From: an uncultured Bacilli bacterium
Lineage (GTDB): Bacteria > Bacillota_I > Bacilli_A > RFN20 > DUOF01
Assembly: GCA_944363575.1 (NCBI GenBank)
Contig: CALVUJ010000009.1
Coordinates: 1 to 47,483, forward strand
Length of the DNA stretch: 47,483 nucleotides
Reading direction: 5' to 3'
The notes beneath the pieces were generated by a model. It saw only the letters and a program-made list of their open reading frames with translations. It searched no databases and was not told the origin of the DNA. Shown here one piece after another: positions 37-4,007 of the stretch. Within the stretch, counting starts at the first letter, position 1; every line of letters starts with the position of its first letter. Both the position numbers and the translations under genes were made by a program.

Positions 37-603
37 ATGAAAATAACGCAAGAAGATATTAATCAATATGTAGCAAACGGTGGGAGCTTGGTTCGTTTAA
101 CAAAAGAACAAATAGAAGCAGTTCCGCAAGAACTTATTAATCAACGTGCAGCAAATGGCGGTGACTTGTTTCGTATAACAAATAAACAAATAGAAGCAAT
201 TCCACAAGAGATAATTAATCAACGTGCAGCAAATGGCGGTGACTTGGAATATTTAACAAAAGAACAAATACAAGCGATCCCTGAAGAAATAAGTGAAGTT
301 TCAAAAGAAGGATTGGAAGCACTAATATTATATAGTGCAGGTAAAATAAAAAAAGAAGATTTACCAGCAAATGTTATTCTTAATTATGCTCTTAGAAAGA
401 ATTTATTAAATATTGTAAAAACTAGATTAATACAACATCAAAATCAAGTATGTAAAGAGAATGGTTATACTGATCATGTTCCTAATGAAGTTCAAGAAAA
501 ATTTAATGAAAAACTAAAAGAAATATATAAAGAAATAAATGAAAAGAAAAAAGATTTATTAAAACAATGTAATAAGAAAGAAAATAAGATAAAGAGCTGT
601 TAA
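37..603 (+). CDS. 26-residue-repeat protein, short copy (3 repeats)
   Basis: A 188-residue protein with no signal peptide or membrane segment, so probably cytoplasmic. After the leader MKITQED come three tandem 26-residue units (residues 8-85) of the form INQYVANGG-x-L-x-x-LT-KEQIEAVPQE. Then follows a C-terminal domain of about 100 residues ending in a Lys/Glu-rich probable coiled coil. The unit reads as two short helices separated by Pro, so an alpha-solenoid is likely. The residues that vary most between units flank the Leu after GG: S/VR, D/FR and D/EY. The C-terminal domain is almost identical to that of the gene at 878-2056, while repeat number differs. An AAGGAG site precedes the ATG. 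I do not recognise the family and infer no function beyond a recognition or scaffold role. Confidence 0.85.
   Translation: MKITQEDINQYVANGGSLVRLTKEQIEAVPQELINQRAANGGDLFRITNKQIEAIPQEIINQRAANGGDLEYLTKEQIQAIPEEISEVSKEGLEALILYSAGKIKKEDLPANVILNYALRKNLLNIVKTRLIQHQNQVCKENGYTDHVPNEVQEKFNEKLKEIYKEINEKKKDLLKQCNKKENKIKSC
58..291 (+). repeat. 78-bp coding tandem repeat, 3 units
   Basis: Three in-frame 78-bp units that encode the 26-residue repeats of the short copy. They differ mostly in the six bases between the Leu codon after GG and the next Leu/Ile codon (gttcgt, tttcgt, gaatat). Confidence 0.9.
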
Positions 604-610
604 TAATATA

Positions 611-693
611 ATAATTTGAGGTGGTAGGATGACACTAGCTGAATTTAAACGATTTGATTTATTAATAAAAAAGTTATGTCCTACGAAAATAAG
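611..693 (+). other. Conserved block after repeat gene, copy 1; possible structured RNA or short ORF
   Basis: This block after the first repeat gene is repeated nearly unchanged after the second (about 2075-2157). It holds a good ribosome site (GAGGTGG) and an ATG at 629 that opens a 47-codon frame (MTLAEFKRFD...) running through the terminator to 772. In copy 2 the same frame stops after 7 codons, so coding is doubtful. GTAGGA (624-629) can pair with TCCTAC (679-684). In copy 2 the partner is TCCTAT, still pairable through G-U. This favours a structured 3' UTR or small RNA. Confidence 0.4.
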
Positions 694-723
694 CACTGCA
701 TTAAATAGATGTAGTGTTTTTTT
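694..723 (+). terminator. Rho-independent terminator of repeat gene copy 1
   Basis: CACTGCAT (694-701), a 7-nt loop, then ATGTAGTG (709-716) with one G-U pair, followed by seven T. The same hairpin follows copy 2. Confidence 0.85.
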
Positions 724-877
724 ATTATATAAACTTATGATATTAAGGTTTTTATTTTTGATTTTACTTTAACAATTTGCAGATAATCATGAATCGCCAT
801 ACCTTTTTTTATCTTGATTTTGAAAATAAACATGATATCATAATATTGCAATACGTTTCATATGGGGGAGATAAATT

Positions 878-2056
878 ATGAAAATAACACAAAAAGATAT
901 TAATCAATATGTAGCAAATGGTGGGGACTTGACATATTTAACAGAAAAACAAATACAAGCAATTCCACAAGAGATAATTAATCAATATGTAGCAAATGGC
1001 GGGAACTTGGTTCATTTAACAAAAGAACAAAGACAAGTGATTTCACAAGAGTTTATTAATCAATATGTAGCAAATGGCGGTGACTTAGGGAATTTAACAA
1101 AAGAACAAATACAAGCGACTCCACAAGAGTCTATTAATAAATGTGCAGCAAAGGGTGGTAATTTAAGGTATTTTACCAATAAGCAAAGGCAAATGATTCC
1201 ACAAGAGTTTATTAATCAGTATGTATTAAATGGTGGGTTTTTGGGGTATTTAACAAAAGAACAAATACAAGCAATTCCACAAGAGATAGTTAATCAATGT
1301 GCAGTAAAAGGTAGGAACTTGGGAGGGTTAACAAAAGAACAAATGCAAGTGACTCCAAAAGAGATAGTTTGTCAATATATAGCAAATGGTGGGAGCTTGA
1401 GATATTTCACAAAAGAACAAATACAAGCAATTCCACAAAAGATAGTTAATCAATATGTAGCAAATGGTGGTTACTTGAGGGATTTAACAGAAGAACAAAT
1501 AGAAGCAGTTCCACAAGAGTTTATTAATCAACGTGCAGCAAATGGCGGGAACTTGGTTCGTTTAACAAACAAACAAATAGAAGCAGTTCCACAAGAATTT
1601 ATTAATCAACGTGCAGCAAAGGGTGGGGACTTGGGAGATTTAACAAAAAAACAAATACAAGCGATTCTACAAGATATTATTAATCAATATGCAGCAAATG
1701 ATGGGAGCTTATGGTGGTTAACAAAAGAACAAATACAAGCGATTCCTGAAGAAATAAGCAAAACTTCAAAAGAAGGATTAGAAGCACTAATATTATATAG
1801 CGCAGGTAAAATAAAGAAAGAAGATTTACCAGCAAATGTTATTCTTAATTATGCTCTTAGAAAGAATTTATTAAATATTGTAAAAACTAAATTAATACAA
1901 CATCAAAATCAAGTATGTAAAGATAATGGTTATACTGATCAAGTCCCTAATGAAGTTCAAGAAAAATTTAATGAAAAACTAAAAGAAATATATAAAGAAA
2001 TAAACGAAAAGAAAAAAGATTTATTAGAACAATGTAATAAGAAAAAAATAAGATAA
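878..2056 (+). CDS. 26-residue-repeat protein, long copy (11 repeats)
   Basis: A 392-residue paralogue of the gene at 37-603: leader MKITQKD, eleven 26-residue units (residues 8-293), then the shared C-terminal domain of about 99 residues (SKEGLEALILYSAGK...). There is no signal peptide or membrane segment. The frame INQYVANGG.L..LTKEQIQAIPQE is nearly fixed. The residue before the conserved Leu is D, N, D, N, F, N, S, Y, N, D, S. The two residues after it are TY, VH, GN, RY, GY, GG, RY, RD, VR, GD, WW. Two of these three positions are adjacent, so the pattern resembles a modular recognition surface. The C-terminal coding DNA is nearly identical to copy 1, which suggests recent duplication or gene conversion. 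A GGGGGAG ribosome site precedes the ATG. The family is not recognised. Confidence 0.88.
   Translation: MKITQKDINQYVANGGDLTYLTEKQIQAIPQEIINQYVANGGNLVHLTKEQRQVISQEFINQYVANGGDLGNLTKEQIQATPQESINKCAAKGGNLRYFTNKQRQMIPQEFINQYVLNGGFLGYLTKEQIQAIPQEIVNQCAVKGRNLGGLTKEQMQVTPKEIVCQYIANGGSLRYFTKEQIQAIPQKIVNQYVANGGYLRDLTEEQIEAVPQEFINQRAANGGNLVRLTNKQIEAVPQEFINQRAAKGGDLGDLTKKQIQAILQDIINQYAANDGSLWWLTKEQIQAIPEEISKTSKEGLEALILYSAGKIKKEDLPANVILNYALRKNLLNIVKTKLIQHQNQVCKDNGYTDQVPNEVQEKFNEKLKEIYKEINEKKKDLLEQCNKKKIR
899..1756 (+). repeat. 78-bp coding tandem repeat, 11 units
   Basis: Eleven in-frame 78-bp units without spacers. Units 8-10 (INQRAANGG type) resemble the units of the short copy most, so the short gene could be a repeat-deletion derivative, or the long one an expansion. 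Confidence 0.92.
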
Positions 2057-2074: not shown

Positions 2075-2157
2075 ATAATTTGAGGTGGTAGGATGACATT
2101 AGTTGAATTTAAATGATTTGATTTATTAATAGAAAAGTTATGTCCTATAAAAATAAA
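2075..2157 (+). other. Conserved block after repeat gene, copy 2
   Basis: Second copy of the block at 611-693. The ATG at 2093 opens only MTLVEFK before TGA. GTAGGA (2088-2093) and TCCTAT (2143-2148) keep the pairing seen in copy 1 by a G-U pair. RNA structure therefore seems better conserved than the reading frame. Confidence 0.4.
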
Positions 2158-2186
2158 CACTGCATTAAATAGATGTAGTGTTTTTT
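2158..2186 (+). terminator. Rho-independent terminator of repeat gene copy 2
   Basis: Same CACTGCAT/ATGTAGTG hairpin as at 694-723, with six T after the stem. Confidence 0.85.
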
Positions 2187-2344: not shown

Positions 2345-3244
2345 ATGAAAAAGACATTAAAAGTGATATCTATATTTTTTAGTTTAGCGTTGTTTTTTTT
2401 GACTGTTAATCTAATCGGAAATGAAAATATTATTCGTGGAGAACCGCATATATGCGATAATAATAATGCAGATTGTACATATAGTTATGGTCAAAACAAA
2501 GTTACTATAGGAAAAGGTGGGCAAATAACAGTAAAATATTCGTATGGTTATACTGAATTGCTTGTTGATATAAATGATGGGAAAGAGATAATTCATATGT
2601 CTGGTGAAAAAGGAAGTGGGGAAAAAACACTTCATCTGAGTAATTATTTAGCAGTTGGAAAAACATACAACATTAGGTTAGTTATTGAGTTTGCTAGTTC
2701 TAATACACAAAATTTTATTCCTCTTTATTGTAATGAAACTATGGGGACAGAAGGATGTGCTGATAGTGCAGAGTATTTTCATATATCTACCAAAAATGAT
2801 CGCTCTGTATATATGAGAGTTGAAAAATATAAAACAGGTGCTGAACCTATTATGGTTGATAATAGACAAGTGGTTTATTTCAATAATCCAGGGTGCTCTA
2901 GCAGGAATAAATGTTATATAGAGGATTACACAAATAAGGAATCATTTATGTATAAAGGAGAATTACTAGTTGAAAAGACCGGTGGAGATGCTGATGCACA
3001 AGCAGTAGAAGAAGAAATTACGGATACTATAATTCCATTATTATTATCAATATTAGGAGTCGCTGCTATTACCACAACAGTTACACTAGGTTATAAAATT
3101 GTTAAATCAGCTGATGAGCCACAAGAGAGAAGGGAATATATTGCAAAATTAAGAAATATTCTTATTGGAATTGGAATAGCATTTTTGCTAGTGGCACTGT
3201 ATACTCCGGTTACTGAACTTGTATCAACATGGTTGGAGGAGTAG
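2345..3244 (+). CDS. Secreted protein with VirB2/pilin-like two-helix C-terminus
   Basis: 299 residues from the ATG at 2345, chosen for its GAGAAGG ribosome site and because a signal peptide follows at once (MKKTLKVISIFFSLALFFLT); the open frame itself begins further upstream at 2234. Then comes an extracytoplasmic region of about 190 residues with several Cys (CDNNNADC, CNETMGTEGC, CSSRNKC) and predicted beta character. The C-terminal 75 residues hold two membrane helices around the loop GYKIVKSADEPQERR. This is the layout of VirB2/TrbC and Mbov_0395-type conjugal pilin subunits. The next gene repeats the arrangement with the loop motif IVKSADNPDIR. Family assignment rests on topology and that loop; the large ectodomain is atypical for a pilin. 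A surface role in a type IV secretion apparatus is inferred. Confidence 0.7.
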   Translation: MKKTLKVISIFFSLALFFLTVNLIGNENIIRGEPHICDNNNADCTYSYGQNKVTIGKGGQITVKYSYGYTELLVDINDGKEIIHMSGEKGSGEKTLHLSNYLAVGKTYNIRLVIEFASSNTQNFIPLYCNETMGTEGCADSAEYFHISTKNDRSVYMRVEKYKTGAEPIMVDNRQVVYFNNPGCSSRNKCYIEDYTNKESFMYKGELLVEKTGGDADAQAVEEEITDTIIPLLLSILGVAAITTTVTLGYKIVKSADEPQERREYIAKLRNILIGIGIAFLLVALYTPVTELVSTWLEE

Positions 3245-3251
3245 ATTTATC

Positions 3252-4007
3252 ATGGCATTTAAAAGGGTGAATATTTTATTTTTAATATATTTTACCTTCA
3301 TGAGTTTTATCTTATTTGGGCAATCTATTTCAGCTAGTGAATTAATGACAAATTATACAGATATCTTTGGGAATGTATTAGGTACAATTAAGATAGAGAA
3401 TGAAAATAAACTTGTAATAGAATATAAGTATGGGTTAAGGCAAGTAGATCTTTATTATTGTAGTAAAGGTGAAGGATGTGACATGAATAATTATTCTCAT
3501 ATTAGTGTTATGCAATCAAGTGAGGCAGAACCATATAAAAATACTAGTCAAGAGTTGGCTACTTATACATACGAATTTAATTTAGATGAGGGATTTGAAT
3601 ATAGAGTAAGAGTAGAGGCTTATTTTGGTACAGGTAGTGGGTATAGTGGAGTAGAAACTATCCCTTCATATACGATTAGTTCTAAACAAGTGCTGGATAC
3701 AAATGATTATTATTTGAAAGGTGTTCAAGGAAATTATCATCATGAAAGCATGAATAGTTTAATGTCTAAAATTAAAAATATTATTAATACGATTTTCTTG
3801 CCAATCATGTATTCTTTAATTGGTATAGTATTAGTTATAAAAGGTGCTATTTTGGGTGTTCAAATAGTTAAAAGTGCTGATAATCCAGATATTCGTATGG
3901 AAAAAATTAAATCATTAAAATGGCTAGTAATTGGAGTAGCTGTAACTGCTTTAGCTAGTAGTATAGTAGGTGTTTTAACAGGTTTCTTTAGTAATGCTTT
4001 TAATTAA
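3252..4007 (+). CDS. Secreted protein with VirB2/pilin-like two-helix C-terminus (paralogue)
   Basis: 251 residues from the ATG at 3252 (GGAGGAG site overlapping the end of the upstream gene). It has a signal peptide (residues 1-29, cut near SISAS), an ectodomain of about 150 residues and two C-terminal membrane helices joined by a polar loop with IVKSADNPDIRMEKI. The loop and second helix align with the upstream gene, while the ectodomains are weakly similar at most (short YKYG/YSYG match). It lies 7 bp after its partner, so the two are co-transcribed and may form a heteromeric structure. The last 33 bp overlap the 3' end of the convergent yigZ gene. Confidence 0.7.
   Translation: MAFKRVNILFLIYFTFMSFILFGQSISASELMTNYTDIFGNVLGTIKIENENKLVIEYKYGLRQVDLYYCSKGEGCDMNNYSHISVMQSSEAEPYKNTSQELATYTYEFNLDEGFEYRVRVEAYFGTGSGYSGVETIPSYTISSKQVLDTNDYYLKGVQGNYHHESMNSLMSKIKNIINTIFLPIMYSLIGIVLVIKGAILGVQIVKSADNPDIRMEKIKSLKWLVIGVAVTALASSIVGVLTGFFSNAFN

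Follow-up and report, generated by a model that had tools for sequence, protein, structure and literature searches.

Two adjacent genes at the start of a contig from an uncultured Bacilli bacterium belong to a new, narrowly distributed solenoid family, in which a 26-residue unit carries a variable face centred on one spot and not a two-residue code. The window analyzed here opens contig C9 and covers its first 47,483 bases; the genome is 1.13 Mb in 26 contigs and about 91% complete. In the best explanation, to which I give about even credence, the family is a co-regulated set of cytoplasmic solenoids, each using the variable face to meet its own partner, probably a protein, and all sharing one constant C-terminal domain. 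As the preliminary description counted, the two genes (A and B) hold 14 units, three and 11, respectively. It had placed them all at 878-2056, which is true of the gene B array, while the gene A units sit at 37-603.

37..603, + strand: gene A, 188 amino acids, three repeat units and a constant C-terminal domain (ORF and translation)
55..288, + strand: gene A array, three units of 78 bp (repeat analysis)
289..600, + strand: gene A, constant helical domain at the C terminus, 104 amino acids (alignments and structure model)
878..2056, + strand: gene B, 392 amino acids, 11 repeat units and a constant C-terminal domain (ORF and translation; model pLDDT 91)
896..1753, + strand: gene B array, 11 units of 78 bp (repeat analysis and model)
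926..937, + strand: variable patch of unit 1 in the gene B array, columns 11-14, D L T Y (entropy and closest-pair analysis)
1754..2053, + strand: gene B, constant helical domain at the C terminus, 100 amino acids, basic, pI 9.4 (alignments and model)

The two proteins are 85% identical across the aligned part, and the patch comes back every 78 bp as far as the end of the gene B array. TRF detected 10.9 copies of a 78-bp period at 898-1746 (score 857) in gene B and 3.1 copies at 47-290 (score 297) in gene A. This periodicity and these scores exclude a chance origin of the repeats. The residue before the leucine and the two after it were confirmed in every unit: S-VR, D-FR, and D-EY in gene A, and D-TY, N-VH, D-GN, N-RY, F-GY, N-GG, S-RY, Y-RD, N-VR, D-GD, and S-WW in gene B. 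Since the gene B protein has no strongly hydrophobic stretch (highest 19-residue hydropathy, 0.77), it is probably cytoplasmic. The suggestion that the repeat is undescribed also held for the libraries searched: it fits no family in Pfam, NCBIfam, PHROG, or PDB, PDB sequence searches gave no usable match, and a literature search with four repeat peptides returned no paper.

The home genome has at least seven copies of the family on six contigs, including genes A and B. This number is a minimum because contigs C9 and C25 start in or beside repeats. The other copies are as follows.

L012, contig C11: 10 units
L013, contig C24: 10 units
L014, contig C10: three units
L015, contig C1: frameshifted within a run of A
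L016, contig C25: at least four units, the array running off the contig end

Every copy starts with MKITQ(E/K)DINQY or a near variant, and the complete copies end in a single constant helical C-terminal domain of 100-112 residues. The unit number (3-11) and the unit order differ between copies. The genes next to the copies vary from locus to locus, which counts against the best explanation. In the C1 copy (L015, 2344-2389), one extra base gives a run of eight A residues compared with seven in the sister unit; the copy may be a pseudogene or a slippage switch, or the extra base may be an error of assembly. The following elements flank the genes in the window.

691..719, + strand: intrinsic terminator of the gene A cassette, 12-pair stem and T tail
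814..841, + strand: sigma-70-like promoter of gene B, TTGATT-16-TATCAT with TG before the second hexamer (consensus match only)
832..854, + strand: operator-like motif ATGATATCATAATATTGCAATAC containing the palindrome ATGATATCAT (genome motif search)
2155..2183, + strand: intrinsic terminator of the gene B cassette

The terminator hairpin is kept in all copies whose 3' flank is in the data, and the upstream block seen at the gene B promoter is conserved across other copies. With up to two mismatches, the upstream motif ATGATATCATAATATTRCAATAC has five occurrences in the genome, all of them closely preceding a family copy. The C1 copy has a diverged form of it, and the contig start truncates the upstream side of gene A. 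Judged from these flanks, the copies look like independent, co-regulated expression cassettes.

The 44 countable units from the home genome formed the set for column statistics. All of them have Leu at column 12 and Gln at column 19. The highest entropies are found at columns 14 (2.62 bits), 13 (2.41), 17 (2.26), 11 (2.21), 1 (2.04), and 18 (1.65), so that the patch columns 14, 13, and 11 rank first, second, and fourth. When each unit was compared with its closest unit, the triple 11/13/14 took 80 of the 237 amino-acid changes, the most among all 2600 column triples. In the 27 closest unit pairs, which differ by 0-10% outside the patch, pN was 0.35-0.50 in the patch compared with 0.03-0.07 outside. 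Thus, the preliminary description was right that one spot dominates, but it overlooked the variation at columns 17, 1, and 18. The three patch columns hold 25% of the total positional entropy, which was counted against the best explanation.

The solenoid nature of the repeat, proposed from the sequence, is borne out by prediction. AlphaFold2 (four sequences) gave a confident alpha-solenoid for the gene B protein (pLDDT 91.2, pTM 0.81) and the same fold for the three-unit gene A protein (pLDDT 90.3). In each unit, a nine-residue helix (column 25 to column 7 of the next unit) is followed by a glycine loop (8-11), a helical turn (12-14, assigned by DSSP in most of the units read out), and a five-residue helix (17-21). 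The patch thereby occupies the inter-helix loop and the next helical turn in the model. From this secondary structure and the polar or charged residues, I infer that the patch is exposed; the secondary structure also suggests that the variable residues cluster on one face. Burial would be hard to reconcile with D, E, R, N, S, G, Y, and W at the patch, and a spectrum of D, N, S, E, R, H, G, Y, and W would fit a solvent-exposed binding face. In Foldseek, no solved structure matched at E<=0.001; the weak best matches were armadillo proteins, with ankyrin and DUF4116 proteins among the viral models.

Is the patch under diversifying selection, as had been proposed? The pN/pS ratio reaches 0.78 in the patch (95% interval 0.63-1.02) compared with 0.51 (0.44-0.60) in the rest of the unit, the intervals being indicative only since the units are not independent. 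However, the patch ratio does not exceed 1, and pS is raised as well, to 1.9-fold that of the rest (1.4-2.3), with some other columns also high. Positive selection is thus not demonstrated, and relaxed constraint or recombination may account for the difference. Since pN and pS are both raised, the codons of the patch are older than the frame around them. The pattern would fit a frame that is homogenised while patch differences are retained.

In a non-adaptive explanation, the hypervariable spot is simply where a structural repeat is least constrained on its surface: the loop and the next helical turn tolerate nearly any residue, and unequal crossing-over and gene conversion, acting between units and between copies, homogenise the rest. 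It is a serious contender, though a doubtful one. It agrees with a patch pN/pS at or below 1 and with the variation of further exposed columns (1, 17, 18, and 20). Copy and unit numbers vary freely, one copy is frameshifted, and the homologue L028 has largely lost the repeat pattern, all of which speak for it as well. However, relaxed constraint alone lifts pN and should not lift pS. In addition, codon bases 1 and 2 of column 14 have diversities of 0.70 and 0.46, far above that of base 3 (0.17), a codon pattern that favours selection on the residue.

The third codon base is nearly fixed at columns 11 and 14 (C in 35 of 44 units and T in 40 of 44, respectively), while the first two bases vary. 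Adenine mutagenesis of AAY codons would yield this pattern, as in targeted hypermutation of the patch by a diversity-generating retroelement or a similar system. Such an origin is scarcely credible here. The column 13 pattern is unlike A-specific mutagenesis, and no reverse transcriptase (PF00078) was found in the roughly 91% complete genome. Diversity-generating retroelements act on one variable region, whereas the family has 44 dispersed units. As a separate feature of the codons, third-position GC in the array of the AT-rich gene B (896-1753) is about 0.05 at most columns but rises to 0.68-0.80 at columns 10-12 (GGG GAC TTG), around the patch, and to 0.68 at column 26. The rise near the patch is possibly a DNA-level recombination feature.

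The preliminary description likened the repeat to TALE, PUF, and PPR proteins. The family does share with TALEs near-identical helical units of fixed length and variable residues in the inter-helix loop, and its C-terminal domain is basic in the home genome (pI 8.6-9.6). Nevertheless, it is very improbable that these proteins are programmable nucleic-acid binders that read one base per unit via columns 13-14. Residues 13-14 form 23 distinct pairs among 44 units with weak covariation (MI 1.007, chance level 0.788, p = 0.023); in TALEs, 4-6 residue pairs predominate (PMC5472282). Together with five or more variable columns, this makes a one-unit-one-letter code unlikely. Since the pI of the repeat regions is 4.4-6.2, neutral to acidic, and the home genome has no basic residue at column 11 (17 D/E, zero K/R), a protein or peptide ligand is likelier than a nucleic acid. 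Column 14 has 11 D/E against 7 K/R, and the C-terminal domain is non-basic in two of the three tested homologues. The TALE characters of a 33-35-residue unit, two variable residues, and few pairs were not found in the family, whose unit has 26 residues; base-specific DNA binding as in TALEs seems unlikely, judged indirectly from the charge of the repeat regions. No TALE, PUF, or PPR family in Pfam matched the gene A and B proteins (E<=1) or seven relatives (E<=0.01), and PUF proteins appeared in Foldseek at E 0.16 or worse only. The proposed TALE/PUF/PPR-like code is thus not upheld. A published TALE-inspired screen took in repeats of 30-43 residues only (PMC5472282) and could therefore not have met a 26-residue family.

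By unit length and motif, the nearest known family is DUF4116 (PF13475), a suggestive resemblance that falls short of established homology. DUF4116 has been modelled as an alpha-solenoid (PMC8078820); it has tandem units of about 25 residues, like the present family, and the two have the pattern E-I/V....V..NG..L.[YF][AL][ST] in common. Some of the viral Foldseek matches carry DUF4116 (ranks 4 and 33). The family is likewise an alpha-solenoid, but the fold alone is insufficient for membership. A profile comparison gave E 0.013-0.016 and a probability of 3% over 11 columns, beating all column shuffles; in hmmsearch, 3-4% or more of the shuffled decoys scored equally well. The unit is 26 residues long compared with 25 in DUF4116, and column 14, which is usually aromatic in the DUF4116 units examined here, is variable in the family. 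In Pfam, DUF4116 matched neither the window proteins at E<=1 nor the relatives at E<=0.01. A genuine DUF4116 protein exists in the same genome (L031, 1222-2184, contig C23) and is easily found, at 68.7 bits; among the 60 class genomes searched, only two other genomes had DUF4116 at E<=1e-6.

Ankyrin and armadillo repeats also have a consensus frame in which a small number of surface positions vary and bind proteins or peptides; ankyrin-type solenoids bind mainly proteins (PMC11514114). Their units are longer (about 33 and 42 residues, respectively), no sequence match to the family was found, and the Foldseek matches had E >0.001 and low TM-scores.

How widely is the family distributed? It was found in the home genome only, both in a single-sequence search of 279 genomes of the order and in a profile search of 395 genomes of the class. 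Phage, plasmid, and viral collections contained no relatives. Full-length homologues are encoded in two MAGs labelled Clostridia, L017 (54% identity to the gene B protein) and L018 (47%), and two further homologue-bearing genomes (L027 and L028) lie near those MAGs. This patchy distribution, with a home genome apparently of another group, suggests possible horizontal transfer. The homologue lies just downstream of rplK-rplA in L018 (6070-7407), L027 (1477-2232), and L028 (1405-2379). At this same site, the array has around ten regular units in L018 and five in L027 and is degraded in L028; therefore, the site is inherited while its array changes rapidly in length. The preliminary description took conservation of columns 13-14 in homologues as a refutation, and such conservation was not seen. 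In 26 units from three other genomes (L017, L018, and L027), these columns again have the top entropy (3.33 and 2.83), followed by columns 1 and 11, and, column by column, the entropies correlate with those of the home-genome units (Spearman 0.65, p = 4e-4). Two proteins resembling WG-type repeat proteins are encoded upstream of the L017 homologue (L017, 1921-4989).

How might the co-regulated solenoid set work? The stacked units would form a rod or a superhelix, which the conserved Leu12, Gln19, Asn3, Ala7, and Ile23 would hold together. Columns 11, 13, 14, 17, and 1 would be the exposed variable face that contacts the ligand, most likely a protein or a peptide. The differing arrays would give each copy its own partner, and the constant C-terminal helical domain would do a common job such as oligomerisation or docking. 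Duplication, loss, and recombination of units would maintain a uniform frame without erasing the differences in the patch. Partner binding, a protein ligand, and selection for diversity are inferred in this scheme. The anatomy of a near-fixed frame, a variable and presumably exposed face, a variable array, a constant tail, a shared promoter, and no strongly hydrophobic stretch would suit a family of cytoplasmic adaptors or binders.

A bolder version would make the family a modular-binder repertoire, with a reading head of 3-5 residues per unit, recombined arrays of 3-11 units, and one operator that switches every copy, contacting different partners unit by unit. I regard this as unlikely. If true, the partners could be, for example, phage or competitor proteins, all for a genome of 1.1 Mb, and the repeat would be an undescribed short-repeat scaffold open to re-engineering. 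Ankyrin (DARPin), TALE, and armadillo repeats are useful as designed binders, and a 26-residue unit with a variable face apart from a near-fixed frame has the same arrangement. If there is no ligand, the family would instead illustrate cleanly how concerted evolution can spare one loop.

Several library matches were rejected. Tudor_krimper_1st in L013 (6049-7158; 40.6 bits, cut-off 27) and CUL7_CUL9_N (up to 31.7 bits) exceed the curated Pfam cut-off but are judged artefacts, in which weak matches to brief segments of an unrelated domain are added up across the tandem units. In these summed Pfam matches, a single stretch was nearly never above the cut-off, with one exception, CUL7_CUL9_N in gene A. 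The LigA and PHROG matches are the same summed-score artefact. PADLOC matched PDC-M20B in three copies (E about 3e-6). In a genome search with PDC-M20B, the only genome found matched another part of the model (141-281) with a protein without such a repeat; a defence role was therefore not inferred.

Downstream of genes A and B, the window ORFs at 2345-3241 and 3252-4004 have a C-terminal part like a type IV secretion pilin (T4SS_pilin/VirB2), with Pfam scores just below the cut-off. No such proteins were seen in the listed ORFs around the remaining copies except the C10 copy, downstream of which a T4SS_pilin/VirB2-like protein, judged by sequence likeness, is encoded (L014, 6716-7600).
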